Below are positions 1 through 38,822 of a stretch of DNA of 64,000 bases, in pieces. Origin of the DNA: Nitrospina sp. (GTDB lineage: Bacteria > Nitrospinota > Nitrospinia > Nitrospinales > JACRGP01); the NCBI GenBank assembly GCA_024648695.1, contig JACAVV010000007.1:1-64000 (forward strand), read 5' to 3'. The position numbers and the translations under genes were made by a program. Below the pieces are notes generated by a model. The model saw nothing but the letters and a program-made list of their open reading frames with translations, did no database searches and was not told the origin of the DNA. How positions within the stretch are numbered: the first letter of the stretch is position 1; the number at the start of each line of letters is the position of its first letter.

Positions 1-208
1 GGTCCGTCTTCAATCAGGTTTTTTCAATAGGAAGCCAAAGTTTTATAACAAATTCCCTCACCGAAATGCGCAATTTAAAATTCTCTCTCGATTTTAATAA
101 TTCTGAGACTCTCATGCAATATGCGGGCTAAGGTCCTTCACCTTGACAGCCTATCCTGAGGATTTTATTTAAAGAGAAATGAGATATTCTTCCTAATAGG
201 AGGGTGTG

Positions 209-334: not shown

Positions 335-342
335 GGTGAACT

Positions 343-1017
343 ATGAAAATAAAAATGGTTGCCCTAACGGGCATTGTTTTGGCGAGTCTCACTTACGGTT
401 GTGCGCAGACCAGTACACAGGTGTTACCTTCCCCCCTTTCCTCTCAGACTACCAGGGAGATGTCTGCAGAAGAGCATCAGGAGGCTGCCGACCTGTACCA
501 TGAACAGGCGAATCGGCTGAAAAACAAGGTGGCTAACCTGGAGCAACGGATGGAGCGGTTCAACAAGAACCCGTATCTGGATCCGAAAGGATTCAAACGA
601 CGAATGTGGAAGACACGTATAGGAACCTACCGTACGGAAATTTCGGAGCTTAATGAAAAAAACGCCTGGCATCATAGGGAGGCCGACCGCTTAAACGGGG
701 TGCTTGCAACGGTAGAGAAGATCGAACCCCTTCCCCTTTCCTCTCAATTTCCCAAAGAGTGGTCTGCAGAGGAGCACCGCGAGGCGGCCGACTTGCTTGA
801 TGAAGAGGCTGTACGACTGGAAGCCAAGGTGGTCCACCTGGAGGAACGGGTGGAGCGGATTAACAATAAGCCGTATCTGGACCCGAAAAAAACCAAACGA
901 CAAGAGTGGAAGGCGCTTATAAAAGCAAACCGTGACGAAATTTCGGAGCTTCGTGAACAAATTCTTTGGCATCAGAACAAGGCCAACCAATTAAACGGAG
1001 TGTTGCCATCTGGATGA
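343..1017 (+). CDS. Lipoprotein with two tandem copies of an ~85-residue coiled-coil domain
   Basis: A 224-residue protein with a lipoprotein signal peptide (lipobox LTYGC, Cys20), so it is probably anchored to a membrane facing the periplasm. The mature part is two copies of one unit, roughly residues 38-118 and 138-220. Each copy opens with WSAEEH/MSAEEH-EAADL, carries a heptad-like helix (LE.R.ER.N) and a K/NPYLDPK motif, then a second helix ending in a W-H...LNGV signature. The DNA copies are also clearly alike, suggesting a fairly recent duplication. The start is supported by GAGGTGAACTATG. I do not recognise the family; a role as a periplasmic helical spacer or scaffold is only a guess. 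It directly follows the ClpB fragment. Confidence 0.8.
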   Translation: MKIKMVALTGIVLASLTYGCAQTSTQVLPSPLSSQTTREMSAEEHQEAADLYHEQANRLKNKVANLEQRMERFNKNPYLDPKGFKRRMWKTRIGTYRTEISELNEKNAWHHREADRLNGVLATVEKIEPLPLSSQFPKEWSAEEHREAADLLDEEAVRLEAKVVHLEERVERINNKPYLDPKKTKRQEWKALIKANRDEISELREQILWHQNKANQLNGVLPSG

Positions 1018-1170
1018 TGCAATAGATGAGATTGGCGTGACCAGCGGGTCACCCGCTTGAGATATTCAATAATATTTTAAGCGGTTAATTTTTAAGGTTC
1101 GTGTAAGCCGTCACAATAATATGGATCAAAGTGGTGAGATTTTAAGAGACACCGTTTCATAGAGTTTTCG

Positions 1171-1221
1171 GCCTGTGGACTTGTGAGTAATGCCTTACAT
1201 TGTTGCACAGGGTCCACAGGC
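1171..1221. repeat. Long-loop inverted repeat
   Basis: The arms GCCTGTGGAC (1171-1180) and GTCCACAGGC (1212-1221) are perfect 10-bp inverted repeats around a 31-nt loop, in the gap after the duplicated lipoprotein. A shorter hairpin (AGCGGGT-C-ACCCGCT, about 1042-1056) lies just after the lipoprotein stop. Neither is followed by a T-run, so neither looks like a classical terminator. Confidence 0.5.
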
Positions 1222-1312
1222 TCTGCCACTACTGGTATTCATGTATTGTGAAAGTCAGGACTTAGGTTGACAAGTTTTGTTAAATTAAAGTTTTTCGACC
1301 GGAGAACCTGAC

Positions 1313-1487
1313 ATGACCTCTCTAACGGATCGAATATTTCAAAATTTAAGTGTCAACCTTTATAATCTTGTCCTTTTTGACGGCGGGAATCTGGATCATC
1401 GTGTAGAACCTGATCGCCATCAAGTTCGGCGGCTGGTACTGTTCCATCTGCGGAAGTAAGAATGTGAGTTGGGTAAAACTGACGTAA
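1313..1487 (+). pseudogene. Broken small membrane protein with zinc-ribbon-like end
   Basis: ATG at 1313 opens a frame reading MTSLTDRIFQNLSVNLYNLV. Shifting to the +1 frame near 1374 gives a hydrophobic stretch (LTAGIWIIV), a TAG stop, then NLIAIKFGGWYCSICGSKN, ending at a TAA at 1485-1487. Joined together this would be a protein of about 57 residues with one membrane helix and a C-x2-C knuckle. One frameshift plus one nonsense codon suggests a decayed gene. The original frame continues as a 48-codon ORF of no obvious character. Confidence 0.4.
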
Positions 1488-1738
1488 ATCAACCTACTCA
1501 ATCCTTTGTTTTACCAAGTGAGGCGCCCGCCTTCCTCTTGACGGTAGAAAGTAAGGATATAAAGTTTTTAAAGGTCGGTCAGGCTCTCGTCTTACATCCA
1601 GAAAATATCCAGGCTGGTATTATCGCGGGCGATGATTTATTCATAATTGTATTTTCTCCAAAAGCCTTCAGTTTTTTTCCCAATACGACTAACCAAACAG
1701 GAGGCTATGTAGGCAAACATGGTAAGTCGCCGATTTAG
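1469..1738 (+). CDS. Hypothetical protein, doubtful
   Basis: An 89-codon ORF with a TTG start and no clear ribosome-binding site, overlapping the tail of the broken small gene before it. The product has alternating hydrophobic and charged stretches, no signal peptide and no motif I recognise. It may not be a gene. Confidence 0.2.
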   Translation: MGKTDVNQPTQSFVLPSEAPAFLLTVESKDIKFLKVGQALVLHPENIQAGIIAGDDLFIIVFSPKAFSFFPNTTNQTGGYVGKHGKSPI

Positions 1739-1937
1739 TAGAAAGGCATAGCTGAAATCCTTATTTTGTATTCGTAATCATCTTCCAGCCTCTTTATAAT
1801 GGTGTGTAGAATGAATAATTTCTACAAGAACTAATTCTTTCCATAAAATCACAATGACTTTAGTCGTTTTTAAAATACAATTTTAATCGGGAACTGATAA
1901 ATACCTCTTGAATAAACAAACCGGAATAAATAATAAA

Positions 1938-3074
1938 ATGTTAACTCTAAAAAAATTAAAGTATTCAGAGTTTGCTAATGACCCAAGGGAATGGTCCGTG
2001 GAGGAATTTGACCTATTTCATATCAATCTTCTAGTCGGGAAAAATGCTACAGGAAAAACAAGAACCCTAAATGTTATAAATAGTTTGGCAGATCTATTGA
2101 GCGGTCGCATCCGCTCTGTTTTTTTGGAAGGGACTTATAGTGCCCATTTTACAGACGGTCAAAAATCATATTATTTTGAATTAATAATTAAAGAACGTCG
2201 AATCGAGAGGGAAGTATTAAGTATCGATGGAAATAAACTCCTTGAAAGAGGTGAGGGAGGAAAAGGTGAAATTTTTGCCGCACAGTTAAAAGAAAAAATT
2301 AAATTCCAAACGCCGGAAAATGAGCTTGCCTCTGTTTCCCGTAGGGACACCATTCAGCATCCCTATTTTGAAATGTTAAATACATGGGGGCAGGGAACTT
2401 TACATTACAGTTTTGGGACAAGTTTAGGCAAAGATCAATTCATGGTAACGCGCTCTGATCCAGAGAAAACACCACAGTTTGACTTAAAGGATACTGGGAA
2501 AGTCGTCCCTTTTTTTAATTTGGGTCTAAAAGCCAAAGGTGAAAAATTTAAAGATGCGATTAAGGAAAAAATGAACTCAATTGGTTATGAAATTGAGGAC
2601 ATAGAAATAATAAAATTAAAAGGAAAAAATATATCTGGTGATTTGGAAGGTATTGGGGTCAAAGAAAAAGGCCTGAATACTATGGTTACTCAGATGGAAT
2701 TATCGCAAGGGATGTTCCGGGTTCTTTCACTAATTATTCAACTGGAATATTGTCGGCAAAAAACGGAACCAAGCCTAATTTTGATTGATGACATTGGAGA
2801 AGGACTCGATTTTGAAAGAGCGGTCTCCCTTGTAAAATTACTGGTCGACGAGGAAGCTAACCCCAAGTTTCAATTAATCATGGCAACGAATGATCGATTT
2901 GTTATGAATAATATTCCCCTGGAATATTGGTCATTAATTCAAAGAAATGGAAGCCATTGCAAGATTTTCAATCATAAAAATTCCGCAGAAAAGTTCGAGG
3001 AGTTCAAGTTTACAGGCCTTTCAAATTTTGATTTTCTCGCTTCAGATTTTGTCAATAAAGTTGTTCAAAATTAA
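1938..3074 (+). CDS. AAA family ATPase of a two-gene defence-like pair
   Basis: About 378 residues from the ATG at 1938; an in-frame TTG lies 30 nt upstream. The fold is ABC/SMC-like ATPase (AAA_15/AAA_21 type). The Walker A GKNATGKT is near residue 36, a signature-like ELSQGM segment is near 263, Walker B is LILIDDIGEGLD near 294, and the ATND switch region lies about 35 residues later. The stop codon overlaps the next start (TAATG). This order, AAA ATPase then TOPRIM-like DUF4276, is that of AbiL/RloA-RloB phage-defence modules (cf. the PARIS and OLD-Gabija logic of ATPase sensor plus TOPRIM nuclease). Base composition is AT-richer than in most neighbours, consistent with horizontal acquisition. 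Function is inferred from architecture. Confidence 0.8.
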   Translation: MLTLKKLKYSEFANDPREWSVEEFDLFHINLLVGKNATGKTRTLNVINSLADLLSGRIRSVFLEGTYSAHFTDGQKSYYFELIIKERRIEREVLSIDGNKLLERGEGGKGEIFAAQLKEKIKFQTPENELASVSRRDTIQHPYFEMLNTWGQGTLHYSFGTSLGKDQFMVTRSDPEKTPQFDLKDTGKVVPFFNLGLKAKGEKFKDAIKEKMNSIGYEIEDIEIIKLKGKNISGDLEGIGVKEKGLNTMVTQMELSQGMFRVLSLIIQLEYCRQKTEPSLILIDDIGEGLDFERAVSLVKLLVDEEANPKFQLIMATNDRFVMNNIPLEYWSLIQRNGSHCKIFNHKNSAEKFEEFKFTGLSNFDFLASDFVNKVVQN

Positions 3075-3772
3075 TGAACAAGCTTGCAATATTTGTTGAG
3101 GGGCAAACTGAGGCCCAATTTATATACAAGCTATTATTAGAAATATTTGGTGAAGCAAATATTTCAATTCAGTACGAACAAAAGGAAATAGGAAAAAAGT
3201 TTAATATTATTAGAGCACATAATGATATTAGTGAAACCGGTTATTACGTCCTAATAAAAGATTGTATGGGAGATGGTTCCGTTAAATCAACCTTACTGGA
3301 GGATTGGGAACGATTAAAAGATAGTGGTTATAAAAAAATTTTGGGTCTAAGAGATGTTTATAGTTTTAAGATTTCTGAAGCTCCAAAATTAAAGGAATCT
3401 TTTAATAAAGATCTTCCCGATTCAATCCCAACCAAAATTCTTTTAGCGATCCACGAAACGGAAGCTTGGTTCATTGCAGAAAATTCTCATTTTGGTCGAA
3501 TAGATTCAAGATTAACAAAAGAGATGATAGAAAGTGAACTTTCTATAAATGTGAATCCATCAAATGTCGAGAATATAGAACATCCGGCAAAAGTATTGAA
3601 TGAAATATACGGTTTGGTAGGTAAAAAATATGACAAGAAAAGGTACACCCTTCCCATCACTATTGAAAATTTAGATTATGGAGAACTTTATTTAAGACTC
3701 ACCAAGGATATCTCAAGCCTAAAGGAATTAATTTCTGAATTAGACCAATTCATTCGCCCTCAGTTAAATTAA
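3074..3772 (+). CDS. DUF4276/RloB-like TOPRIM-type protein
   Basis: A 232-residue protein translated with the upstream ATPase (1-nt overlap). The N-terminus carries the IFVEGQTEAQF strand-turn motif typical of DUF4276/RloB-like TOPRIM folds, where the Glu is a metal-binding candidate. The middle has LAIHETEAWF, matching the HExE segment of that family, and the usual D-x-D position is replaced by a looser acidic region. In AbiL-type systems this component is the presumed effector nuclease. No signal peptide or membrane segment. The terminal helix is ordinary. Likely role: toxic or antiphage effector triggered by the ATPase. Assignment to DUF4276 rests on the VEGQTE and HETEAW motifs only. Confidence 0.75.
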   Translation: MNKLAIFVEGQTEAQFIYKLLLEIFGEANISIQYEQKEIGKKFNIIRAHNDISETGYYVLIKDCMGDGSVKSTLLEDWERLKDSGYKKILGLRDVYSFKISEAPKLKESFNKDLPDSIPTKILLAIHETEAWFIAENSHFGRIDSRLTKEMIESELSINVNPSNVENIEHPAKVLNEIYGLVGKKYDKKRYTLPITIENLDYGELYLRLTKDISSLKELISELDQFIRPQLN

Positions 3773-7243: not shown

Positions 7244-7966
7244 ATGGACCATATGACTGACGATTCGACAGAAATTACCAATTCGGGTTCTCTGTTCATC
7301 GTCAGTACGCCGATCGGGAATCTGGGTGACATCAGCTTCCGATCCATCGAAATTCTACAGTCAGTTTCAATCATTGCGGCGGAGGACACGCGTCGTACCA
7401 AAGTTTTGCTCAACCACTACCAGGTGGCCACTCCCTTGACCAGTTACCATAGTTACAATTCAGCGAAAAAGACTCCGGAATTGATTTCCCGGCTCCAGAA
7501 GGGGCAATCGATTGCCCTGGTTTCGGACGCGGGCACACCGGGAGTATCGGATCCGCTTTACCACCTCGTACGGTCGGCGGTCGATCACGGTATTCCGGTG
7601 ATCTCGGCCCCCGGTGCCTGTGCGGCGATTTCTGCGCTGACGGTTTCCGGTTTGCCGATGGACCGTTTTGTGTTCGAGGGCTTTTTGCCGGTCAAGAAGC
7701 GCCGCAAGAAAACCCTGGAAACGCTGGCGGAGGAACCACGGACGGTGGTGCTTTACGAGTCTCCGCACCGCATCGCCAAAACTTTGAAAGAGGTTTACGA
7801 GGTTTTCGGGGACCGCCCGGCGGTCATCGCGCGGGAAATGACGAAAATGCATGAGGAAATCATTCGCGGCTCGCTTTCCGAGCTGGCGAGTTTAAATAGA
7901 CCCCATTGGAAAGGCGAGATCACTCTGGTGATCGGTGGCCGGCCCAAACCGGGAAAGGAGAACTGA
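7244..7966 (+). CDS. rsmI: 16S rRNA (cytidine-1402-2'-O)-methyltransferase RsmI
   Basis: A 240-residue SAM-dependent enzyme that 2'-O-methylates C1402 in the decoding centre of 16S rRNA. The tetrapyrrole-methylase fold is plain: LFIVSTPIGNLGDIS at the start, AAEDTRRTKVLL, the SAM-loop ALVSDAGTPGVSDP (about residue 88), APGACAAISALTVSG, and FEGFLPVKKRRK. Length is close to that of the minimal family members. Its stop overlaps the start of the ParA-like ATPase (TGATG), so the two are translationally coupled. Confidence 0.95.
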   Translation: MDHMTDDSTEITNSGSLFIVSTPIGNLGDISFRSIEILQSVSIIAAEDTRRTKVLLNHYQVATPLTSYHSYNSAKKTPELISRLQKGQSIALVSDAGTPGVSDPLYHLVRSAVDHGIPVISAPGACAAISALTVSGLPMDRFVFEGFLPVKKRRKKTLETLAEEPRTVVLYESPHRIAKTLKEVYEVFGDRPAVIAREMTKMHEEIIRGSLSELASLNRPHWKGEITLVIGGRPKPGKEN

Positions 7967-9273
7967 TGCCTGTTGTATCCATCATTGGCCCCAAGGGCGG
8001 GATTGGCAAGACCACCTTGTCGATCAACACCGCCGCGGCGCTCACCCGCCTTCTGCCCCCACGCGACCGGGATAACCGGGTGTGTCTGGTGGATCTGGAT
8101 TTACGTTTGCCGACGATTTCGAGTTTGCTCGACAGTCATCCACACAACACCTTTTACGATTTGTTCGAAACTCTGGCGAACCAGACCTTTCAGGTAGATT
8201 TCCTGCGCAGTGTGTATCAAATCCTGTCGCGGTTCACGCATCATCTGGACGGCCTGATCCCGGAAACCGACAAGGGATTGGCTGAGAGTTTGTCCTTATA
8301 TAAGAATCTGAACACGGATCATTTCAATTTCACAGAACTTCCCTTTGGAGAAGCCTTGTACGAGTTGTTTCTGGAGCGCGGGCAAATCCGGATTCCGGCA
8401 GATATCCGCAAGCTGGTGCCGGTGCTGTTTCGCATCGATCTGTGCGAGTTCAAGGAGGCGCTCAACAAGCGGGAGGAAAACTCCATTCCGCGAGTGGATG
8501 AATACATTAAATATATTGAAGAGTATCAACTCTCCCTGATCGGTGGAGAGATTCCGATTCTTGGCAAGAAGTCGCATCGGCAGAGGATCAACGATCCCGA
8601 GTATTTGCTGGTGTTCCTGGACGTGTTGAGCGAGGTGTTCCGCCGTTTCGATTATGTGATTCTGGACACCCCCGCAGGTGGCGTCAATCACCTGTCGCCG
8701 CTGATGAATTCCATCGACCAGACTTTGTTCGTGTTCGATTTGAGCAACACGATTGCCGTGAACGGAAGTATCGACGCGATTCATTCCTTCATCGATTACT
8801 ACGAGGATTTTTATGAGGATTATCGGGAAGGTCGGTTGACCGGACTGGACAAGGCCCACGTCAATCGTCTGTTAGCCCAAAAGGGCGAACGGGCTATCGA
8901 GACTTCCTTGAGGAACAAGAAACTGAGCTTGTTGTTCAACCGTTTTCAGGAGCCGCGCGACCTGAACAAGGCGCTGGATCATTTGCGTGAGTATCTGGAA
9001 ACCCTCGACAAATGGCAGGGCTATAAAGACCGGATTCATATTGTGGGGATGTTGCCCCATCACAAGGTGATCAACATCACCAACAACCACGGCGCCATGT
9101 TTTACAAGAAGGAGCAGACTCTGACCGCTCACATGGATCAGGTGGCGGGCTGTTTGATCGAAAATCAGGAGCAATGTCCGACCTTAAGCCAAAGCAATCG
9201 GGACATTCTGGATTTTTTGAAATCCAAAGGCTGGTTGTCCTGGACGCGGGGTTTGGGGAAGGCGGCTGTTTGA
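7966..9273 (+). CDS. ParA/MinD-like ATPase
   Basis: A 435-residue P-loop ATPase, started at the ATG overlapping the rsmI stop and preceded by GGAAAGGAG. The deviant Walker A is KGGIGKTT near residue 9, with the A' strand CLVDLDLRLPTISSLL near residue 45 and FDYVILDTPAG near residue 225. A large insertion of about 120 residues separates A' from the switch-II region, and the C-terminus holds a helical segment, making it much longer than MinD or Soj. It is followed by a bactofilin and an L,D-transpeptidase, so a likely job is positioning envelope-synthesis or cytoskeletal components rather than chromosome partition. No parB-like partner is visible. Confidence 0.8.
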   Translation: MPVVSIIGPKGGIGKTTLSINTAAALTRLLPPRDRDNRVCLVDLDLRLPTISSLLDSHPHNTFYDLFETLANQTFQVDFLRSVYQILSRFTHHLDGLIPETDKGLAESLSLYKNLNTDHFNFTELPFGEALYELFLERGQIRIPADIRKLVPVLFRIDLCEFKEALNKREENSIPRVDEYIKYIEEYQLSLIGGEIPILGKKSHRQRINDPEYLLVFLDVLSEVFRRFDYVILDTPAGGVNHLSPLMNSIDQTLFVFDLSNTIAVNGSIDAIHSFIDYYEDFYEDYREGRLTGLDKAHVNRLLAQKGERAIETSLRNKKLSLLFNRFQEPRDLNKALDHLREYLETLDKWQGYKDRIHIVGMLPHHKVINITNNHGAMFYKKEQTLTAHMDQVAGCLIENQEQCPTLSQSNRDILDFLKSKGWLSWTRGLGKAAV

Positions 9274-9324: not shown

Positions 9325-9849
9325 ATGTTTAAAAAGCTAAAAGTATTGTCGGAAGAAGAACTTGAATTCATGCTAGAAAAGGATCCGCAGGGGGTGTACC
9401 TGAAGGAAGTGCGGGAAAAATTTTTCTGGATCGTTGAGAAAATGCACCAGAACCGGGACCAGTGCTCCTGGTACGAACGCCGTTTGCTGAAAAAATTCCA
9501 GAGTATGCAACCCGGCCTTCTCATCGGCCCTAAAGCGATCATCAAAAATCCCATCAAGGCCGAACGCATCATGACCGTGGAAGGCCTGGTCAAAGTTCAG
9601 ATTCAAGTCATCCATTGGCTTCACGTCACGCCCAGCGGTTGCATCGAAGGCGATGTGTGGGCAGGATCGGTCATTTGCGAAGGGCGAATTGAAGGCACCG
9701 TACATGCAGAAAACAGTGTCGAGATTTTGCCCGGCGGCCGTATACTGGGTGAAGTCGATACCCCGTCCCTGCAAGTTGCCGAAGGCGCCTTTTTCGATGG
9801 CCGGTGTCTCATGCAAAAAAATCCCGTTCCAGCAGGCCACATCGAGTGA
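9325..9849 (+). CDS. Bactofilin with an extra N-terminal domain
   Basis: A 174-residue protein. Residues about 65-165 are a bactofilin beta-helix: short repeats with G-x-(I/V)-x-G turns (GCIEGDVWAGSVICEGRIEGTV...GGRILGEV), which polymerises without nucleotide to form cytoskeletal scaffolds. Residues 1-60 are not part of the usual family. They carry a KDPQGVYLKEVRE motif and a YERRLLKKF end, and match the first 60 residues of the next gene. The protein lies between the ParA-like ATPase and the L,D-transpeptidase, suggesting a scaffold that recruits the wall enzyme. An intrinsic terminator overlaps the stop codon. Confidence 0.85.
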   Translation: MFKKLKVLSEEELEFMLEKDPQGVYLKEVREKFFWIVEKMHQNRDQCSWYERRLLKKFQSMQPGLLIGPKAIIKNPIKAERIMTVEGLVKVQIQVIHWLHVTPSGCIEGDVWAGSVICEGRIEGTVHAENSVEILPGGRILGEVDTPSLQVAEGAFFDGRCLMQKNPVPAGHIE

Positions 9850-9860
9850 GCCTGCTTTTT
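9831..9860 (+). terminator. Intrinsic terminator at bactofilin 3' end
   Basis: AGCAGGC (9831-9837) pairs with GCCTGCT (9850-9856) and is followed by a T-run. The stem straddles the bactofilin stop codon. The L,D-transpeptidase start lies about 180 bp downstream, so that gene may have its own promoter. Confidence 0.6.
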
Positions 9861-10038
9861 CCCCTCGCCTCCCTCCTGTTTTTCGTTTAAAATTCTCCGC
9901 TTTCGGGCTACAATCGCTTTACCGGATGTTGAAACCTCTGGTTCTCAATAACATCCGTCTGCGTTTTCTTTCCCAGAACGAATATTAATCGTTCCCGTTC
10001 CTGTTTTTTCAATGACTGAAGTAATTCATGGGATTTGA

Positions 10039-11199
10039 ATGGCACTCAAACAACTCTCCGTATTAACTATCACCGAGTACAACCTGCTCGCCAATAAGGA
10101 TCCGCAGGGAAGTTACGACCGCAGTACCCGCGAGCATCTGGACAGCATCATCGTCAAATTGCGCAATCCCAGAAGGCCGTTGTCGCCTTTGGAAAACCGG
10201 TTGTATCAAAAATTCGAGCATGCCGAGTTCAAAGCGCTGGAGGCCAAGGAAAAACGGGTCAACCAGGAAGTCAGACGATACCGCCTGTCGAGTGGCGTCC
10301 AGCGGACCCTGAGCATTGCCGCTTCGGTGATCCTGACCCTGGCTTTGATCGGTGTGTTGACCTACCAGTTTGTGCTTTCAGCATCCGCTCGCAAAGAGGT
10401 GCAGTTGGCCTGGTACTCGGGATTGAACCGGGCGGGACTGGTCTCTAAGGAAGATTTTTTAAAGATTCGCCTGAACCTGGAAGTGGCCATTCGCAAACTG
10501 GAGGAAACCCAGAACGAGAATAAGGAATTAACCGCTCTGGTCGACCGTATGATTGTCAACAACAAAAAGAAAGAGAACCTGAAAGGAATCGTAAAAAAGA
10601 TCTATCAGGACCCGCGCACACAATACATCACCAAAAACGGCGAAGTTTTATTACGGTTTGAAGGCAGGGAAATCGCGCATTACAAGTCTGATCCGCAACT
10701 ATGGTACATGGTTGGAATTTTGGAAACCGGCGTGATCCGCCTGTACTATAATGATGAAGAACTGATGGATATCGAAACAATATTTGGCCGCAAAGGCGAG
10801 GAAACGCCGCTGGGAGAATATAAAATCCAGAATAAGGTGTACAAACCCACCTGGTACAAAAAAGAGCCGGTGGACGGCAAAATAAAAGTGCGCGCGATTC
10901 CCTTTGGAGACACCGACCACGAAATCGGGTACTGGTGGCTGGGCCTCAACCGGCTGGGCGATCCGGTTCCGGGAAGTTATGGCATACATGGAGTCAATAC
11001 CAGTAAGGCCAACGAATTTTTCCGCAAAAGTTTTGATTGGCGAAGCGGCAGTGCCGGTTGTCCCAACGTTCAGGAGTGGTTTCTCGATTTTCTTGCCAAA
11101 GTGGTGCCTCTGGGCACACGGGTGAGCGTGGTGCAGGAGGACCGCTGGATGAATGTCAACAACGACCGCTCAAAAGCGCGAAAGCCATCGTCGGCATGA
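10039..11199 (+). CDS. Membrane-anchored L,D-transpeptidase (YkuD) with the bactofilin-linked N-domain
   Basis: A 386-residue protein. Residues 1-60 repeat the domain found at the front of the bactofilin (NKDPQGSY...RE...P..NRLYQKFE). A membrane helix covers about residues 92-112. A coiled coil (about 145-172) leads to a YkuD domain (about 230-365) with GRKGEETPLGEY, YGIHGVNT and the catalytic SGSAGCPNV (Cys nucleophile in S-x-G-C). The usual Arg after the Cys is replaced by Pro-Asn. YkuD enzymes make 3-3 peptidoglycan cross-links or attach proteins to the wall. Topology would place the shared N-domain in the cytoplasm, where the bactofilin is, and the enzyme in the periplasm. Confidence 0.85.
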   Translation: MALKQLSVLTITEYNLLANKDPQGSYDRSTREHLDSIIVKLRNPRRPLSPLENRLYQKFEHAEFKALEAKEKRVNQEVRRYRLSSGVQRTLSIAASVILTLALIGVLTYQFVLSASARKEVQLAWYSGLNRAGLVSKEDFLKIRLNLEVAIRKLEETQNENKELTALVDRMIVNNKKKENLKGIVKKIYQDPRTQYITKNGEVLLRFEGREIAHYKSDPQLWYMVGILETGVIRLYYNDEELMDIETIFGRKGEETPLGEYKIQNKVYKPTWYKKEPVDGKIKVRAIPFGDTDHEIGYWWLGLNRLGDPVPGSYGIHGVNTSKANEFFRKSFDWRSGSAGCPNVQEWFLDFLAKVVPLGTRVSVVQEDRWMNVNNDRSKARKPSSA

Positions 11200-11245
11200 A
11201 ACGCATTTCCCGCTCGAATCATTTTACCCAAACCGAATCGATCAC

Positions 11246-12661
11246 ATGAAAAAACCCTGGGGTGGACGCTTTAAAGAGGCGACAGACGATATCATGGTCC
11301 GCTTTTCCGCATCGATTGGCTATGACCAACGCCTATATGCTTACGATATTCAGGGCAGTATCGCTCATTGCAAAATGTTGGCCAAGTGTAAAGTCATTAA
11401 ATCCACCGAAGCGAAAAAGATAGTTTCAGGACTACAAAAAATTTTAAAAGAATTCGAATCCGGGACTTTCGTTTGTGATGAAAAGCTCGAAGACATTCAT
11501 ATGAATATCGAGCGAAGGTTGATCGACCTCATCGGTCCTGTGGGGGGCAAGCTCCATACCGGACGCAGTCGAAACGATCAAGTCTGCCTCGACTTCAGGT
11601 TGTTCCTGCGCGCTGAAACCGAAGCCATTGTCGAAGGGATCACTCGCCTCAGCAAGGCCTTTTTGGCGCAGGCCAGAAAAAATGTGGATACCATCGTTCC
11701 CGGCTACACGCATTTGCAAAGAGCGCAACCGGTGCGATTGGCGCATCACCTGCTGGCATATGTTGAGATGCTTTTACGCGACCGCGACCGATTTCTGGAT
11801 GCTTACCCGCGCATCAATGTCATGCCTCTGGGATCTGCGGCACTCGCGGGGACAAATTTTCCTCTCGACCGCGAATACACCGCAAAACTGTTGGGTTTCC
11901 CGGAAATTTCACACAACAGCATGGACGCCGTAGGCGACCGTGATTTCGCGATAGAGTTTTGTTCTGCCTCAGCGATTCTGATGGCGCACCTTAGCCGGTT
12001 TTGTGAAGAGATCATATTATGGTGCAGTAGCGAATTCGATTGGGTGGAATTGAGCGATGCCTTCACTACCGGAAGCAGTATCATGCCGCAAAAGAAGAAT
12101 CCCGATGCCGCTGAATTGACGCGTGGAAAAAGTGGAAGGGTGTTTGGCAATCTGATGGCTTTACTCACCCTGCTGAAATCCTTACCGATGGCCTACAATC
12201 GCGATTTGCAGGAAGACAAGGAACCCGTTTTCGACACCGTCGATACGGTAAAATCCGTTTTGGATGTGATGACGGGAATGTTGAAAACCGCCCGGTTCAA
12301 AAAACCCGCCAAAGCGGATCTGGAAGCAAAAGGTTTCCTGACGGCGACCGATATGGCGGACTATCTGGTTTTGCAGGGAGTTCCCTTTCGCGAGGCGCAT
12401 GAGATCACCGGAAAAGCAGTGGCTTATTGCCTTGAGCAGAACAAACCGCTGGGGGAACTGGGAATGGAAGAATTAAAAACCCTGTGGCCCCGGTTTCGTG
12501 AAGACGTTTATGGTTACCTGCAACTGGAATCGTCTGTAGACCGCAAAGACGTTTATGGGGGACCCTCCAAACGACGCGTCCAGGCGCGCATCAATCAAAT
12601 CGATAAGAAACTGAAAACCAGCCGATCCGCATTGTTTAAAACGAAAGGCAGAAGGCCATGA
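11246..12661 (+). CDS. argH: Argininosuccinate lyase
   Basis: 471 residues from the ATG at 11246; a longer start would run into the previous gene. It splits argininosuccinate into arginine and fumarate, the last step of arginine synthesis. Hallmarks are the N-terminal KPWGGRF, GRSRNDQV, the HLQRAQPV region, the DAVGDRDF segment, and the fumarase-superfamily signature GSSIMPQKKNP containing the catalytic Ser. Length is normal. Its stop overlaps the next start (ATGA), coupling it to the small lipoprotein. Confidence 0.97.
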   Translation: MKKPWGGRFKEATDDIMVRFSASIGYDQRLYAYDIQGSIAHCKMLAKCKVIKSTEAKKIVSGLQKILKEFESGTFVCDEKLEDIHMNIERRLIDLIGPVGGKLHTGRSRNDQVCLDFRLFLRAETEAIVEGITRLSKAFLAQARKNVDTIVPGYTHLQRAQPVRLAHHLLAYVEMLLRDRDRFLDAYPRINVMPLGSAALAGTNFPLDREYTAKLLGFPEISHNSMDAVGDRDFAIEFCSASAILMAHLSRFCEEIILWCSSEFDWVELSDAFTTGSSIMPQKKNPDAAELTRGKSGRVFGNLMALLTLLKSLPMAYNRDLQEDKEPVFDTVDTVKSVLDVMTGMLKTARFKKPAKADLEAKGFLTATDMADYLVLQGVPFREAHEITGKAVAYCLEQNKPLGELGMEELKTLWPRFREDVYGYLQLESSVDRKDVYGGPSKRRVQARINQIDKKLKTSRSALFKTKGRRP

Positions 12662-12780
12662 AAAAAATTGTATTGTTAATTTTGGGAATAATGGTTTTAG
12701 CGGGGGGTGGAATCGGCTGTGGAACCAAAGCACCTCCAAAACCCCCGAAGGAGTCGTTGAATTTTAAACTTATTCATTGA
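12658..12780 (+). CDS. LptM-like mini-lipoprotein
   Basis: A 40-residue lipoprotein with signal sequence MKKIVLLILGIMVLAGG and lipobox GIGC, followed by GTKAPPKPPKE. The G-C-G-x-K-x-P start of the mature part and the position directly after argH (ATGA overlap) fit LptM/YifL, which in other bacteria sits between argH and lysA/dapF and aids LptD assembly. No lysA follows here. Confidence 0.7.
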   Translation: MKKIVLLILGIMVLAGGGIGCGTKAPPKPPKESLNFKLIH

Positions 12781-12946
12781 TTGAATGATTCCGCTCCAAA
12801 TAATTGATTGACATTTTCCTCATTTTTTCATACGGTGCGAGGCCATCGGAACACGTGCCCAATCTTTATCAACACCCTCTGGATATTTTGTTTCCTCAGA
12901 TTCTTTAAAAGGTGTCCAGGAGAATGACTCAGGAGTTTTTTACCTA

Positions 12947-13102
12947 ATGGACAAGCCGGAAATGAATCCCAATCCCTCGCAATTTCAAACTCCCGTTTAT
13001 GATCAGGAGTTTCCTGTCCCAAGTGCGCAAATAATCTCCGACGAACAACGTATCGAAAAACTGGAAAAAATGTACGGAAAAGAGTTTTTTGATTTGTGGT
13101 AA
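12947..13102 (+). CDS. Small hypothetical protein
   Basis: A 51-codon ORF with an AGGAG site about 11 nt before the ATG. The product is polar, proline-rich at the front (MDKPEMNPNPSQFQTPVY) with a charged helix at the end (DEQRIEKLEKMYGKEFFDLW). No family recognised. The surrounding gap (12781-13388) otherwise shows nothing clear. Confidence 0.45.
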   Translation: MDKPEMNPNPSQFQTPVYDQEFPVPSAQIISDEQRIEKLEKMYGKEFFDLW

Positions 13103-13388
13103 AAACCTTCCGATGGTCCCTGGTTCCCGATTCCTCCTAAATTCTCTCATCCTCCCCATCACGACCTCGCTCCAGGACATTGGATTTCTGGATTTTAAAT
13201 TTTCAATGAATTAATGGTCCATTAATTCCCACTAAGATAAATAAAATCCAAAACCCTATTAATTTTCAGTAAGTGTAATTGAGTTTTAGGGTGGGTTCCT
13301 CTATAATGTCAGAAATACATCCATAGCATGTAGGTTAAAAAAAGTTTTTAAAACTCATTTGGTCTAAGTTTGGCCTTTTCTTGTGATA

Positions 13389-15344
13389 ATGAAAAACACG
13401 CTGGATTTTTTATCAAAGTTATCCATTCGGGTCAAAATTCTCGTTAGCTTTGTTGGCGTTTTATTGAGTGTTTGGCTGATGGTTGTCACAATCACCATCC
13501 AGAACACAAAAGAATCTGCCTTGAAGTCTTATAAAAATGAAATTCGCAGTATGAACCGGATGGTAGCCGATACAACGGCGGCCAGTTTCAAAAATTTGGA
13601 CTTTGACCATTTGATGGAATCGATCAGTTGGTTGAAAAAAGATACTAAAGTTGTGTACCTGGAAATCTTTGATTCCAATGAAAAGAGTCTGGCCAGTTAC
13701 AACCCTGAACAACTTGAATTTCCATATTCTGACATGGCAAATAGGGAAGGGCCGCAATTTTTTGGTAAATATCTGCTTTCCTCAATGCCTATCATTCAGT
13801 TCAGCCAGTTCAGCCAACAGGAAACTTTTAGTGGGACCGTTTTTATAGGCTTGAATCTGACCGAACTGGACCAAACGATCTGGAGCCAGCAATTAAAATC
13901 GAGTTCCCTGGCATTGATCATTCTCGTTGTCGGAATCATTCTGATGGTGGTTATATCGAACCAGATCTCCAAACCTATTATCAATCTGGCTATGGTTTCC
14001 TCACAGGTTGCGGAAGAAGGTAAATACGACCTTCGAGTAAAAAAACAGAACAACGATGAACTGGGTGTTCTGGTGGACCGCTTTAACAATATGCTCTCAC
14101 AAATAGAAAACCAGAACCGTACTCTGAAAAATATTAATGAAGAACTGGAATCCAGAGTTCGGGAACGAACGCAGGAACTGGAAAAAAGCAAGGAGGATGC
14201 AGAGCAGGCAAATCAGGCGAAGGGCGAATTTTTAGCCCGCATGAGTCATGAACTCAGGACCCCTTTGAATGCAATCCTTGGATTCAGCCAGTTGCTCACT
14301 ATGAATACCCAGGATTCCCTTACAGATAACCAGAAAATCCAGTTGGATCAAATCATAAAGTCGGGTAACCACTTGTTGTCACTCATCAATGAGGTTCTGG
14401 ATTTATCACAAATCGAATCCGGAAAAATTGAAATCCAGGAGGAAGAAGTCGATTTTAAAGTATTGAAGGATGAGATTCTAAACCTCGTCGCCCCTCTTGC
14501 GATGGATAAGGAAGTCAGTCTCATCGATGGAATGAATATAGCCACTGGATCCCTGATAGTGCATGCAGATCGCGCTCGCTTGCGGCAAGTGCTACTCAAT
14601 TTGGTCAGTAATGGGTTGAAATACAATCAACCGGGAGGCAAGGTAATCATCCGTCATCAGGTCCAGGATGACGACAGAGTTCGTATATTTGTCAATGATA
14701 CCGGAATTGGAATTGAAGATCATCAAAAGGATCGCCTGTTTCAACCCTTCGAAAAATCCCATTTTGAAGATAGTGGCGTGGATGGTGCCGGTGTGGGTTT
14801 ATCCATTTCGAAAAAGCTCATCGAATTGATGGGAGGTTCCATCGATTTTGAAAGTAAGGTAGGTGAAGGCAGTTCATTTTTTATCGACCTTAAGATTGCG
14901 AAGGACACCACTCAATCAAAATCCGAAGGGTTGGATAACTTTTCAATTGAAAAAGAGGAAGAAGGTGAATTTAAAGTTTTGTATGTGGAAGACAACCGGG
15001 CCAACCTGGAATTGGTGGAAAGTGTTCTGGCAATGCGAAAATCGGTTAGACTGTTTTCAGCATCCCAGGCCCTGTTGGGGATAGAATTGGCACGGACGCA
15101 TCGACCTGATTTGATCCTTATGGATATCAATTTGCCGGAAATGGATGGCGTCACTGCAATGAGAATTTTAAAGGATGATTTGAGGACTCAAAACATTCCT
15201 GTTGTTGCTTTAAGCGCTGATGCCATGCAATCGGATATAAATAATGCCTTAAAGGAAGGGTTTACGCATTATTTTACCAAGCCCATTAATATAAAAAATT
15301 TCCTCAAATTCATCGATGAAATGATTAAAGTCAAAGGGATTTGA
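13389..15344 (+). CDS. Hybrid sensor histidine kinase
   Basis: About 651 residues from the ATG at 13389 (a GTG lies 6 nt upstream). Order: TM1 (about 18-38), periplasmic sensor of about 130 residues, TM2 (about 172-193), HAMP, coiled coil, HisKA with phospho-His in [10 protein letters not shown] (about 287), HATPase_c with N-box [10 protein letters not shown]1 DTGIGI and G2 GAGVGLSIS, then a receiver domain with Asp in [13 protein letters not shown] (about 579). It would autophosphorylate and pass the phosphate internally; an Hpt partner is not in view. It lies directly upstream of the electron-conduit genes and may sense a related signal, but no response-regulator gene follows. Confidence 0.9.
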
Positions 15345-15369
15345 GATAAGGTCATCATATCTAGATATT

Positions 15370-15840
15370 TTGAATTTAATAACCACAGATAAAACTTTTG
15401 TATCCTATTTTGAAAACATCTTGAGAGTTTTTTATTTTTTCGTTTTGTTTTGCGTTTTAATGAGTTCCACAGGGTTTTTGGTGGCAAACGCATTTTCTGA
15501 AGAACCCAGGGTTTTCATTACGCAACCTAAAGATGGAGAAGTGGTTCCTCGAAAATTTGAAGTTTGTATGGGGGTGGAGGGTTTGATTCTTGAACCCGCG
15601 GAAAATGGCGTTAATGAAGGCAAGGGGCATCATCATATTTTATTCAGTTCTTTGCCCACGGATTTGAGCAGACCGTTGAGGCGAAAGCAGGGTATTCATC
15701 TGGACAAGGCCCAAACTTGCGTTAACTTGAAAATGCCTGTTGGAAAACATGCGATCACCATTTTGTTTTCCTATGGTGATCATGTTCCCTACAACCCTCC
15801 CATTTATGACAAGATACTGGTGACGGTTGAGGACAATTAG
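15370..15840 (+). CDS. Exported DUF4399 protein
   Basis: About 156 residues if the TTG at 15370 is used. The true start is uncertain and may be a few codons further in. A long hydrophobic signal segment (residues 19-42) is followed by the DUF4399 core: VFITQPKDGEVVP, CMGVEGLILEPAENG, GKGHHHILF and GKHAITILFSYGDH. The GHHH block is the family hallmark and a plausible metal site. Two Cys occur in the mature part. It lies 10 bp before the decahaem cytochrome, so probably in one transcript with it and possibly a periplasmic accessory of the conduit. Confidence 0.8.
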   Translation: MNLITTDKTFVSYFENILRVFYFFVLFCVLMSSTGFLVANAFSEEPRVFITQPKDGEVVPRKFEVCMGVEGLILEPAENGVNEGKGHHHILFSSLPTDLSRPLRRKQGIHLDKAQTCVNLKMPVGKHAITILFSYGDHVPYNPPIYDKILVTVEDN

Positions 15841-15849
15841 CTACGATGT

Positions 15850-16881
15850 TTGACAATCAGGGTATTGATAAGAAGGTCCCGTTTGTTTTTGAATAAAGTT
15901 ACTAAAATTTTATTTTTCCTGCATTGTGCTTTCGTTTTATTGGGCTCATCCGCTTATGCTGAACGAAAGGTCAACTGGAAAGCAGTGAATCCTCTTTTGA
16001 AGGATTCTGTTCCAATAGCCCAATCAGGCAATCCTGATGACGAAACCGAATGTCTTCTTTGCCATAAGGGATATATCAAGGCATTCGGTAAAACGGTTCA
16101 TGCCAAAGCGCTCACAGCCCGGTTTGGCGCAGGGAAACTGGGAACTTTGTGCGAAACCTGCCACGGTCCCCTGAGCGGACACCTTAAGGAAATGGGCATC
16201 GGAAAGGGTGCGGGCAAGAAATCGAAGGATCCCCGTTTCATGGTTTCCTTCAAAAGGCATCCGGCTCCCGCTCCCGCGCGCAATGCGGTTTGCCTGCAAT
16301 GCCACCAGGGTTCCCAGGGTATGATGTGGAAGGGAAGCGCTCACGAAATGGGAGGCGTTACCTGCAACTCGTGCCATTATGTTTCAAGAAAAACCAAAAA
16401 ACACAAAAGACTGATCCTTCAGGATCCCAAAAAAGTCTGTTACCAATGCCACCGCGGCATACGCGCTAAAATGAGGCGGACCTCCCACATGCCTCTTTCC
16501 ACTGACAAATATGGGTGCCAGAGTTGCCACAATGCGCATGGTGGACCTGGACCGGCATTGTTAAACCGCTCTTCCGTGAACGAAACCTGCTATCAGTGCC
16601 ATCAGGAAAAACGCGGACCTTATATTTTCGAGCATGCACCGGTGCGTGAAAATTGTATGAACTGCCATCGGCCCCATGGTTCCAGTTTTATTCCCATGCT
16701 GAAACAAAAACCTCCATTTCTTTGCCAGCAATGCCACATGAACGTGTTTCATCCCAGCAATGTTTATGATGGCCAAAGCGTTCGCAACCGAAGCAGTTAT
16801 ATTGGACGCAAAGGTTGTGTGAATTGCCACAGCCTGATTCACGGCTCCAACCACCCCTCCGGTGCGAGATTTCAACGATGA
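15850..16881 (+). CDS. Decahaem c-type cytochrome, MtrA/DmsE family
   Basis: 343 residues from a TTG (a TTG 39 nt further on is also possible), with a signal peptide ending near SSAYA. Exactly ten CxxCH haem motifs are spread over residues 70-335: CLLCH, CETCH, CLQCH, CNSCH, CYQCH, CQSCH, CYQCH, CMNCH, CQQCH and CVNCH. Size and haem count match MtrA/DmsE/PioA, the periplasmic wire that inserts into an outer-membrane barrel. Its stop overlaps the start of the MtrB/PioB gene (ATGA). No outer-surface MtrC-like multihaem gene is adjacent. It could carry electrons outward (mineral or partner reduction) or inward (Fe(II) or other extracellular donor oxidation). Confidence 0.93.
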   Translation: MTIRVLIRRSRLFLNKVTKILFFLHCAFVLLGSSAYAERKVNWKAVNPLLKDSVPIAQSGNPDDETECLLCHKGYIKAFGKTVHAKALTARFGAGKLGTLCETCHGPLSGHLKEMGIGKGAGKKSKDPRFMVSFKRHPAPAPARNAVCLQCHQGSQGMMWKGSAHEMGGVTCNSCHYVSRKTKKHKRLILQDPKKVCYQCHRGIRAKMRRTSHMPLSTDKYGCQSCHNAHGGPGPALLNRSSVNETCYQCHQEKRGPYIFEHAPVRENCMNCHRPHGSSFIPMLKQKPPFLCQQCHMNVFHPSNVYDGQSVRNRSSYIGRKGCVNCHSLIHGSNHPSGARFQR

Positions 16882-19199
16882 GGTTTCATCCAAATAATCA
16901 TCTGGGAGGCCTTTGCCTGGGTCTTGGCTTGTCTTTTTTGGCGCTGGTTCCCCCTGCCGAAGCTGATCCGCTCGACGTTTCCGGCGATGAGGAAGTCGTG
17001 TTTGAGGTTATGGAGGGTGGCGAATTTGTTTCTCCAGAAGAAGAGGACTGGGTGCAGGAAGGATTGGATGCCGAGGTTCGAGCGGGTGCCGGCGGCGTGA
17101 AACTTTCGCGGGAGACGTCCCGTTTCGGGCGCATGCTGGGTATCGACGACGATGAGGGATTCGCGGTCGGAGATTTTGACCTGGATTACCACCGCAAAAA
17201 CTATTTCATGGAATTTACCGGCGATAACCTGGGATTGGACAACCGTAAGATTCGCCTGGAAACCGGAAAATACGAAAGCTTTAAATTATCCGCTGAATAC
17301 GACCAGCAACCTTTCCAGACTCTGGATCGAGCCAGAACCATTTTTAACGGAGCGGGTAGTTCCAACCTGACTCTCCCGCAGGATTTCACCCGCGCCGCTA
17401 CGTTCACGACAGGGAACATCACCAACAGCAAGGATATCGATTTAAGTATTGATGACCGCCAAACGGCCAGCTTTTCCGCAACCAAAACGATCGGGAATCA
17501 CGCGTTTAATGTTCAATACAAACGAATTGAGAAGGAGGGGCTGTTGGCCCTGGGAGGTGTGGTGGGTGACCATCCCGCCAATCCGCGCTCCACTATTTTG
17601 CCTTTGGGCATCGATTTCCTGACCAATGAAGTGACCTCCTCCTGGTCTTACGATGGGGAAGATGCGCAATTGAAACTGGAATACTTTGGATCCTTTTTCG
17701 AAAACCGGCAAACGGTTCTTGCCTTTGAAAATCCCTTTGAGGATCTGGTCCCATTTTTTGGAGGCATTCCCTCGATGATTGGACCGCTTCCTGACAATGG
17801 TTTAATTTCACGCGAGCCGGACAATGAATTGCATCGGGTCAGCGCTTCCGGAGGCATTGACCTGCCCGGGTCCACCCGGATCACAGCCGTGGGTGAATAC
17901 AGCTTTTCCGCACAGGATGAAAACCTGCTGAATTATTCCGTTGATACCGGTTCCGATTTGCTTCCTCGCCAAAGCGCTGAGGCGGAAATTCAGACTTTGC
18001 ATTTTAATCTGCGTGCGAACTCAAGGCCTTTGCCCAAATTGTCTTTAAATGCAGAGTACCGGTTTTACCAGACCATCAACGACACTCCGCAAACATTTTT
18101 CCAGGCGGTTGTCAATGACACCAACGGTCAGGTTGGCATCGACGGCGACCGGACTCTTGCCAATTTGCCCTTTGATTACACTCAAAACCAGATAAAACTG
18201 GAATCCGTTTATCGGGTTTGGAAAGCGACGTACCTTGAATTGGGGTATGAACTGGACCACTACAACCGAGACAAACGGGAACGCGATGAAACGCTGGAAA
18301 ACACATTTAAAATCGGGGCACGTAGCCGGGCGGGATCCTGGGCGCAGGTGCGTGCGAAGTTCCGTTTTTCCAATCGAACAGGTGATAATTATAATGCACA
18401 GGGAACCGCGAATATTCGCCATACCGCAGAACATTTAGCCGTCGCCACGCCGAGGCCGTCCGGGGGCCACCTGGAATTGAGGAAATTCGATATTGCCGAT
18501 CGCCAACGATACCGTAGCAATTTCAATGTTTCAATCTTCCCCTTCGATTCGCTCACTCTGGGACTGGGATACCAAATGGACCTGAACGATTACAGCGACA
18601 GCGCAATTGGTCTGCAGGAATCTTTCATTCATGATATCACTTTTGATGTGGATTACACTCCCAGCGAGACTCGGTCTTACTACGGATTTTTTACTTTCAA
18701 CCGGGGAGATCAGTTGCAAATCGGCCGCTCCCATTCATTTACCGCAGGGACAAGCGAGGATGTAGAACGAGACTGGGAACTCGATCTGGCGGATAACTCT
18801 TATACCGTCGGGGCGGGCATGAACTGGAGTTTTTTAAAGGACAACAAGCTCAACCTCAAGGTGGATTACTCATTCACCCAAAGCGTGTCCGAATTTGATC
18901 TTTCCGCAGGATCCGATCCCTCGGTAGCGAATCCTGAAGATCCGGCAAACCTGGATTCCATCACGCACACCATAACCTCCACGCTGGAATACAAATTCAC
19001 CCCAAAACTTACGTTTGGAATGACCTATTTATACGAAAACTTTGCTTATCGCGATTTTCAGCAGGAAAGTTTCAATGCCCTGACGACCCTGGAGACCTCT
19101 TCGGAAAACCTTACCGAAGTTCTATTACTGAGCGACCCCTTGCAGGAATACGAAGCTCATCTTGCTATGATTTACGCCACCTATAGGTTTGGCCTTTGA
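16878..19199 (+). CDS. MtrB/PioB-family outer-membrane beta-barrel
   Basis: 773 residues from the ATG overlapping the cytochrome stop. Signal peptide of about 33 residues (to AEA). The rest is a series of alternating amphipathic strands ending in an aromatic-rich strand (IYATYRFGL), as expected for a large porin. The pattern of repeated LxLxYEY/KLSLNAEYRF strands and the pairing with a decahaem cytochrome identify MtrB/PioB, the sheath that holds MtrA in the outer membrane. The short CxxC motif present in the N-terminus of Shewanella MtrB is not seen; PioB-type proteins also lack it. Confidence 0.9.
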   Translation: MRFHPNNHLGGLCLGLGLSFLALVPPAEADPLDVSGDEEVVFEVMEGGEFVSPEEEDWVQEGLDAEVRAGAGGVKLSRETSRFGRMLGIDDDEGFAVGDFDLDYHRKNYFMEFTGDNLGLDNRKIRLETGKYESFKLSAEYDQQPFQTLDRARTIFNGAGSSNLTLPQDFTRAATFTTGNITNSKDIDLSIDDRQTASFSATKTIGNHAFNVQYKRIEKEGLLALGGVVGDHPANPRSTILPLGIDFLTNEVTSSWSYDGEDAQLKLEYFGSFFENRQTVLAFENPFEDLVPFFGGIPSMIGPLPDNGLISREPDNELHRVSASGGIDLPGSTRITAVGEYSFSAQDENLLNYSVDTGSDLLPRQSAEAEIQTLHFNLRANSRPLPKLSLNAEYRFYQTINDTPQTFFQAVVNDTNGQVGIDGDRTLANLPFDYTQNQIKLESVYRVWKATYLELGYELDHYNRDKRERDETLENTFKIGARSRAGSWAQVRAKFRFSNRTGDNYNAQGTANIRHTAEHLAVATPRPSGGHLELRKFDIADRQRYRSNFNVSIFPFDSLTLGLGYQMDLNDYSDSAIGLQESFIHDITFDVDYTPSETRSYYGFFTFNRGDQLQIGRSHSFTAGTSEDVERDWELDLADNSYTVGAGMNWSFLKDNKLNLKVDYSFTQSVSEFDLSAGSDPSVANPEDPANLDSITHTITSTLEYKFTPKLTFGMTYLYENFAYRDFQQESFNALTTLETSSENLTEVLLLSDPLQEYEAHLAMIYATYRFGL

Positions 19200-19232: not shown

Positions 19233-19676
19233 TTATTCGCATTCCACATTAAATTTTTTCTCGGCAATGAAATCGCCGTCTAGAAACACTTTGGCTTTCC
19301 ATTCACCGTTCAATCGCACCTTGTGAATATCCGCCAAAAGCAATTCGCGTTTTTGTTGTTCGTTGAGGAAGCTGAGGGATATCCAGTTTCTGGCACGTTT
19401 GGTGGAGGAAACAAACTTCAGGTCATACTCGTTTTCCTGTTCACCATCCGGGTTATACCAAATAGCGGTAGCCTTATGTATACCGTCACCCAAATCATTC
19501 CAGGTAAACACCAGATATACATTTTTCCGGCAATTGATGGTATCGACAGGTTTTCGATAAATGATGTCATCGGTGACAATAATTTTAGCCGGATCTTCCC
19601 CGGCCCATGCGGGTGTCGAAACAAGAAAAATTGCGAATCCAAAAATGGGAATAAAAAGACGTAAATAACCATTCAT
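19233..19676 (-). CDS. Secreted beta-rich protein, unknown
   Basis: 147 residues with a clear signal peptide (ending TPAWA) and an AGGAAAT site before the ATG. The mature part is one compact domain with two Cys (NCRK near residue 49 and the C-terminal VECE) that could form a disulfide. I do not recognise the family. It is convergent with the MtrB gene. Confidence 0.7.
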   Translation of the reverse strand: MNGYLRLFIPIFGFAIFLVSTPAWAGEDPAKIIVTDDIIYRKPVDTINCRKNVYLVFTWNDLGDGIHKATAIWYNPDGEQENEYDLKFVSSTKRARNWISLSFLNEQQKRELLLADIHKVRLNGEWKAKVFLDGDFIAEKKFNVECE

Positions 19677-19731: not shown

Positions 19732-20466
19732 CTATTGAGGAGGAGGGTTCCCGCGTACAGCATGACCGTGCAGGTCCTTGGGTTTGCCTTGCAGGCGGTC
19801 AAGTACGCTGGTCATATGGGAAACTCCAAAGCCATTACCTAAGTCCTTGAACGTATTGCGCGCCTGAGTGAACAACACGATGGCCTCATCCTGTTTTTTC
19901 TGCTTCCAAAGCAGTTGGCCGAGCGCTTCCTGGACGTTGGCCAATACGATATTGGGGTCGCCACCCACGGTCACAGACAAACCTTTGCGGTAAGCCACTT
20001 CTGCCTGATCTTCCTTTTTCCATAGGACCATCATATCGCCCAGCAACTTCAGGGCGCGGGCCTGTCCCACCGGATTGTTGATCCGCTCATGATAACGGGC
20101 CGCTTCTTCATATTGAATTTGCGCCTCCCTGGGCTCGTTAGCGAATTTGTACAGGTCCCCCAGGGATTCATAAGTCCTGGCGGCTTTAGTCAGTTCGTTT
20201 CTATTTTCATAGACCAGAATAGCCTTGCGATAATTTTCAGCCCCTTTGGCAAACTCATGAAAAAAGTAGTTTTCCGAAGCCTGGTGAATCAAGGCTTCTG
20301 CCTCGTCTTTGGGGATAGCCGGAGAAGCAAAAGGTTCGTCACGGATTTGGGACGGGGATTGTTTCGGATTCATCCAGATGGAAACGGAAATCAGGACCAC
20401 GACGGTGATCACGATCGTCACATTTCCTTTTCTTGAGAAAAATTTTCGCATGGAACGGCCAGACAT
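19732..20466 (-). CDS. Membrane-anchored TPR protein
   Basis: 244 residues. An N-terminal membrane anchor (about residues 15-33) is followed by a linker and about four tetratricopeptide-type helix pairs (e.g. AARTYESLGDLYKFANEPREAQIQYEEAARYHE; AQVAYRKGLS region). TPR arrays bind partner proteins, and the topology puts them in the periplasm. It has its own start about 55 bp from the secreted protein downstream. An in-frame start 15 nt further in is equally possible. Confidence 0.75.
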   Translation of the reverse strand: MSGRSMRKFFSRKGNVTIVITVVVLISVSIWMNPKQSPSQIRDEPFASPAIPKDEAEALIHQASENYFFHEFAKGAENYRKAILVYENRNELTKAARTYESLGDLYKFANEPREAQIQYEEAARYHERINNPVGQARALKLLGDMMVLWKKEDQAEVAYRKGLSVTVGGDPNIVLANVQEALGQLLWKQKKQDEAIVLFTQARNTFKDLGNGFGVSHMTSVLDRLQGKPKDLHGHAVRGNPPPQ

Positions 20467-25960: not shown

Positions 25961-26043
<83 letters not shown>

Positions 26044-38774: not shown

Positions 38775-38822
38775 GACAATCCCCCTTGAGAGATAATACG
38801 ACAATTGCCAAATGGGCCAATT

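Follow-up and report, generated by a model that had tools for sequence, protein, structure and literature searches.

The window, a 64,000-nucleotide stretch of Nitrospina sp. DNA, lies on a contig of 230,293 bases (C23) in a 4.21-Mb assembly that is 97% complete. Four neighbouring genes on its forward strand are the subject of this analysis. A membrane-bound hybrid sensor histidine kinase (13389..15344), with HAMP, HisKA, HATPase_c and receiver domains recognised by Pfam, is followed by a DUF4399 protein (15370..15840; Pfam DUF4399, E-value 1.8e-16), probably periplasmic as judged by eye from a signal-like N-terminus. Then come a periplasmic decahaem c-type cytochrome of the MtrA/DmsE family, which begins with TTG (15850..16881), and an outer-membrane β-barrel of the MtrB/PioB family with its ATG at 16878 (16878..19199). 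The kinase and DUF4399 genes are 25 bases apart, the DUF4399 stop precedes the cytochrome by 9 bases, and the TGA of the cytochrome overlaps the ATG of the barrel as ATGA. The next two genes (19233-19676 and 19732-20466) are both on the reverse strand and match no HiPIP-type family in Pfam. Given the short gaps, the ATGA overlap and the opposite strand of the downstream genes, we infer that the four genes form one operon. The preliminary description of this DNA listed ten CxxCH motifs, the ATGA overlap and a large barrel next, with a DUF4399 protein and a hybrid kinase upstream; all of these are present, the cytochrome and barrel at 15850-19199. Cytochrome and barrel are each single-copy in the genome, other matches falling far below the cut-offs. 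A phage link was considered and dropped, because the barrel has no relative in a scan of viral contigs.

The cytochrome carries ten CxxCH motifs in 343 residues, far above chance: among 2000 shuffled versions of this sequence the average was 0.07 motifs and none had more than 2. Its TIGR03508 score is 239 bits, above the cut-off of 192.2, and its best relative among all solved structures is MtrA (6r2q chain A, E-value 1.3e-60). Ten further histidines are conserved: His84, His111, His165, His213, His230, His262, His276, His301, His331 and His335. Each is a histidine in 73 to 96 of the 96 aligned rows, and all ten align with histidines of S. baltica MtrA in 6r2q. These are the putative distal haem ligands, with a His-to-haem pairing that we infer.

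The barrel scores 361.8 bits against TIGR03509 (cut-off 240.05) and matches PF11854 with an E-value of 3.5e-117. Its best relative among all solved structures is MtrB (6r2q chain B, E-value 7.4e-35). A model predicted from 10 sequences (mean pLDDT 69.8, pTM 0.65) contains 29 strand elements, of which 26 span at least 8 residues. The top structural match of this model is 6r2q_B (E-value 1.1e-37, TM 0.70 by query), and the next barrel follows at 2.1e-8. MtrB in the MtrAB complex has 26 strands, the first four of which are shorter (PMC7198977); the first four strands of our model have 15, 12, 8 and 9 residues, and most others are longer. The predicted fold is a 26-strand, MtrB-like barrel. On homology and prediction, the decahaem cytochrome inside this barrel very probably constitutes a haem wire across the outer membrane, of the MtrAB type. 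An MtrA/MtrB-type conduit had been proposed in the preliminary description, and the TIGR models, the 6r2q matches, the ten distal His positions and the predicted fold bear it out.

The whole genome contains no match to TIGR03507, the OmcA/MtrC family, in agreement with the earlier claim of a conduit without an outer-surface MtrC-like cytochrome. No CymA-type quinol exit was seen in the genome either, its one match to the Pfam NapC/NirT family being NrfH, beside NrfA. Three Pfam models reveal further multihaem proteins: two ExtM-like ones, two with three CxxCH motifs and an unassigned one with four, a list that is unlikely to be exhaustive. The two ExtM-like large cytochromes (C23, 220-226 kb) were considered as the missing surface cytochrome and rejected; a relative of one of them occurs in 57 of the 77 genomes of the phylum regardless of whether a conduit is present, so the pair is not tied to the conduit.

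The distribution of the conduit is patchy, with 12 of 77 genomes of the phylum carrying it. The barrel is above the cut-off in ten of the 77 and is also clear in G043, where it is split over two contigs, and in G072 (207.9 bits); a thirteenth genome has a short barrel fragment. Within the window's order, ten of 64 genomes have the conduit, and within its family one of five, the other four assemblies being 71-86% complete.

A tree of the cytochrome was built with 96 rows. As it used the best 80 of 551 confirmed relatives, it favours near relatives, and no verified MtoA is among its rows. Sequences of 150 bits or less or with fewer than 8 CxxCH motifs were dropped, as were L026, L030 and L034 (copies of L045, L044 and L046). 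All ten Nitrospinales rows fall into a single clade (97/90). Its sisters are labelled Nitrospirota OFTM308 and Deltaproteobacteria RIFCSPHIGHO2_02_FULL_43_33 (the twelve together, 100/98); these are MAG labels, and the assignment to Nitrospirota and Deltaproteobacteria may reflect mis-binning. Two Nitrospinota rows, G003 and G072, fall outside the Nitrospinales clade. The Shewanella MtrA, MtrD and DmsE rows group together elsewhere (100/100), the labels MtrD and PioA having been assigned by gene order or organism; MtrC was verified in L107 only, and DmsA and DmsB in L118 only, as neighbours. Rows of family f3 appear in two places of the tree, and a test that held the six as one clade disfavoured this arrangement (p-AU 0.023). 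The result is no more than a hint of transfer or loss inside the order, because the group was named after the tree had been seen. The barrel tree, a quick one calculated without bootstrap from 81 of 88 rows (six rows below 550 residues and L073_3127 were left out), agrees in placing its nine Nitrospinales rows together (SH-aLRT 99). The trees are evidence that the conduit cytochromes of Nitrospinales form one clade apart from the Mtr and Dms sets. Phylogeny had been named as a check in the preliminary description, and in it the window cytochrome joins other Nitrospinales and a genome labelled Nitrospirota, apart from both Shewanella Mtr and DmsE.

Kinase, DUF4399 protein, cytochrome and barrel occur together in the window genome (G000) and in G008, G009 and G010; in G011, the kinase and DUF4399 genes end one contig (C58) and the cytochrome begins another (C7). 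These five genomes form one subclade (cytochrome tree, 100/98; barrel tree, 96). The same four-gene order had been suggested as something to look for in relatives. The set does recur, in three Nitrospinales genomes and, split, in a fourth, but a kinase on the same strand was seen in the window genome alone; the four relatives have it in divergent orientation. Over most of their length, the G008, G009 and G010 kinases align with that of the window, with 32-38% identity in the sensor part. A homologous kinase accompanies the module subclade in all five genomes and is absent from the other Nitrospinota conduits; the kinase homologues lie beside the conduits of loci L025, L030 and L032, and on L162. 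The window kinase is a receiver-bearing hybrid with no separate regulator adjoining it. Elsewhere in the phylum, the conduits of G015, G018 and G019 lie near pentahaem, Rieske-like and cytochrome b-like genes (the last two identified by eye), and the conduit neighbour in G003 is a c554-like protein with three CxxCH motifs. The partnership of kinase and DUF4399 protein is conserved in the module subclade and is the least explained part of the set.

We had considered DUF4399 as a conduit-only gene. The family is present in 60 of the 77 genomes, with five matches in the window genome, and so is not restricted to conduits; only the conduit-linked subfamily is special. Conduit-linked copies score 226-282 bits against a profile made from four of them, compared with at most 132 bits for 31 other copies, and the G011 copy, which was outside the profile, scores 225.7 bits. 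Among the named neighbourhoods of the best 80 of 551 relatives, many of which are cut by contig ends, DUF4399 is near a conduit only at L044, a copy of G010. Six histidines are invariant in 25 members of the family. The predicted structure is a β-sandwich with only common β-sandwich matches (Foldseek best E-value 6.9e-5; VIA best Z 9.4 over 86 residues at 2.7 Å), and no solved sequence relative was found at E-values up to 1. CopC appears weakly among the Foldseek rows and is a lead only. The publications found on DUF4399, judged by their titles or the beginnings of their abstracts, include none on electron transfer. A search of the literature on Nitrospinota and Nitrospina conduits, with preprints and most subscription papers outside its reach, found no account of the kinase–DUF4399 partnership.

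The host belongs to the Nitrospinota and is, by its genes, a nitrite oxidiser. The last 358 bases of C23 encode NxrA residues 1-113, with a twin-arginine-like start and 95.6% identity to NxrA of G009, and contig C50 encodes NxrA residues 461-1153 followed by nxrB. The conduit and the beginning of an nxr operon are thus on the same contig, which argues against mis-binning. Among the best 80 of 551 relatives, the closest cytochromes are those of Nitrospina sp. HKST-UBA01, a Nitrospinae CG11 MAG and an uncultured Nitrospina. The probable nitrite-oxidiser lineage that the preliminary description had read from gene flavour is thus substantiated, by both the nxr genes and the relatives. In G009, a single-contig genome, one nxrABC copy lies ~9.4 kb from the conduit barrel. 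NxrB was found in 8 of the 12 conduit genomes (not in G008, G011, G043 or G072) and in 23 of the 77 overall. Repeated near-identical NxrB copies of N. gracilis failed to assemble from reads (PMC3578206), so NxrB may often be lost from assemblies. The window also encodes an EB_dh protein with two cytochrome c domains (36972-38804), which resembles the alt_NxrC described for N. gracilis in the same source. NrfHA in the genome makes some anaerobic respiration possible.

How might such a cell use the conduit? As there is no MtrC, the wire would contact its partner directly at its outer end, a mode that has been proposed for the Fe(II) oxidisers with MtoAB or PioAB. Most likely, Fe(II) or a comparable external donor would supply the wire with electrons, which would go on to small c-type cytochromes of the periplasm, a pool that nitrite oxidoreductase (NXR) also feeds; from soluble cytochrome c the electrons would then reach a terminal oxidase. 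The co-encoded kinase would act as the switch that turns the set on. For the DUF4399 protein, our guess is an accessory role in the periplasm, binding metal at the inner end of the wire. Fe(II) uptake through an MtrAB-type wire into the NXR-fed cytochrome pool is the best explanation we can offer as a whole, and we give it an even chance of being right. A more specific version would be a kinase-controlled four-gene module in which a previously undescribed, His-rich DUF4399 subfamily of the periplasm is a working part of the conduit, for example an inner-end metal or electron partner that replaces CymA or PioC, with NXR-bearing cells drawing on Fe(II) by way of the shared cytochrome pool. We consider this version unlikely.

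Inflow fits better than outflow given that no CymA-type quinol exit was seen, and with NXR in the periplasm, the simplest route leads through soluble cytochrome c to a terminal oxidase. The presence of NXR on the conduit contig and of NxrB in two-thirds of the conduit genomes also counts for Fe(II) uptake into the NXR-fed pool. On the other hand, an 11-CxxCH cytochrome with a NapC/NirT start adjoins the conduit in G015, G018 and G019 (L027-L029), and a NapC/NirT-like tetrahaem adjoins that of the Nitrospirota sister L047. Such NapC-type neighbours suit quinol-linked flow in either direction and, together with NrfHA in the window genome, weigh against inflow. The inward direction is about as likely as not. 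MtrAB wires can run both ways, and the same neighbours and the anaerobic capacity implied by NrfHA favour reverse flow, in which electrons from stored carbon, formate or hydrogen would, once oxygen is exhausted, be passed to Fe(III) or Mn(IV) or to another cell. Electrons from nitrite are too oxidising to reach iron oxides by such a wire, so a different donor would be required for export. Their potential is about +430 mV (PMC3578206). Against reverse flow, neither MtrC nor any NapC-family protein besides NrfH was found in the 97% complete window genome, and we regard it as a less likely alternative.

The name of model TIGR03508, 'DmsE family', raises the question of a Dms-type set, in which decahaem and barrel would supply a molybdenum enzyme on the cell surface that reduces a soluble acceptor. 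The window cytochrome stands apart from the three DmsE rows of the tree, and none of the four PF00384 places in the 97% complete genome is DmsA: they are the 3' part of nxrA, an FdhF/YdeP-like protein, a large NuoG/Fdh-like protein and a gene in a complex I-like operon, the last identified by gene order only. The preliminary description had itself pointed to this alternative; it is largely refuted and we consider it extremely improbable. Kinase conservation in all five subclade genomes, and its hybrid form without a separate neighbouring regulator, could also mean that the wire serves chiefly as a redox valve or for sensing, under the kinase, and not as an energy-conserving pathway. Kinases beside respiratory gene sets are common, however, and the other Nitrospinota conduits lack this one; we consider such a role improbable.

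The preliminary description knew such conduits from metal reducers and Fe(II) oxidisers; cases in Nitrospinota had already been reported. Three Nitrospinaceae MAGs are reported to encode MtoAB, and others to have cyc2-like genes (PMC11995701); MtoA is recorded in four Nitrospinota MAGs (PMC11442690). The main text of a 2022 survey of MtrCAB clusters (PMC8805035) contains no word beginning with Nitrospin. The kind of conduit is thus already known in the phylum, and the kinase–DUF4399 pair is an unexplained accessory. Nitrospinota are called the most abundant known oceanic nitrite oxidisers in PMC8026999. A dedicated conduit would allow some of them to link nitrogen cycling to iron cycling, an idea already put forward on the basis of subsea-tunnel genomes, and conduit-bearing nitrite oxidisers may also trade electrons with minerals. 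Our analysis adds a 97% complete carrier with NXR on the conduit contig, a count over the whole phylum, a Nitrospinales clade apart from Mtr and Dms, and the conserved kinase–DUF4399 partnership as a concrete target for tests.

Compared with Shewanella MtrCAB (6r2q), the window pair has the same decahaem and MtrB/PioB barrel, the ten distal His positions and, by our prediction, the 26 strands; it differs in that no MtrC or CymA was found in the genome, that the cytochrome belongs to a separate clade, and that the barrel's only cysteine sits in its signal-like N-terminus. The Shewanella DmsEF-AB set matches the same family models, but the window genome has no DmsAB and the DmsE rows lie inside the Shewanella clade. 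PioABC of Rhodopseudomonas shares the decahaem, the barrel and the lack of MtrC; unlike it, the window pair has no HiPIP-like (PioC) neighbour, and the rows labelled PioA, from gene order or organism, are elsewhere in the tree. MtoAB sets have CymA/MtoC and MtoD as neighbours. No CymA/MtoC, MtoD or small cytochrome gene adjoins the window pair. The likeness to MtoAB of Sideroxydans and of the Nitrospinaceae MAGs, as described in PMC11995701, lies in a two-gene conduit without a surface cytochrome, and the MAGs belong to the same phylum as our genome.

The nxr genes of the window's own genome are interrupted by a contig gap that splits nxrA. Residues 1-113 are encoded at the end of the window's contig (C23, about 229936-230293, in stretch L042), and contig C50 opens with residues 461-1153 together with nxrB (1-3445, stretch L039). 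In G009, a Nitrospinales relative represented by a single contig, the conduit and one nxrABC copy (9517-15505 of stretch L161) lie about 9.4 kb apart.

The window's contig also encodes two adjoining large ExtM-like cytochromes with 10 and 11 CxxCH motifs (L042 8138-14083; C23 220-226 kb). Because a relative of the second is present in 57 of the 77 Nitrospinota genomes searched, the ExtM-like cytochromes are apparently a core feature of the window's order. An 11-CxxCH cytochrome with a NapC/NirT start adjoins the conduit in three Nitrospinota genomes (L027, where it occupies 7840-8724, L028 and L029); within the window's own family, two genomes (L182, L183) also have it, although no conduit was found in either.

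Elsewhere, the window contains two tRNA-Leu genes, with anticodons tag (25961-26043, plus strand) and taa (33092-33176, minus strand), and encodes an animal haem peroxidase family protein (52141-53940, minus strand; E = 1.2e-163). The protein encoded at 36972-38804 on the minus strand combines two cytochrome c domains with an EB_dh domain, and resembles alt_NxrC of Nitrospina gracilis as described in PMC3578206.
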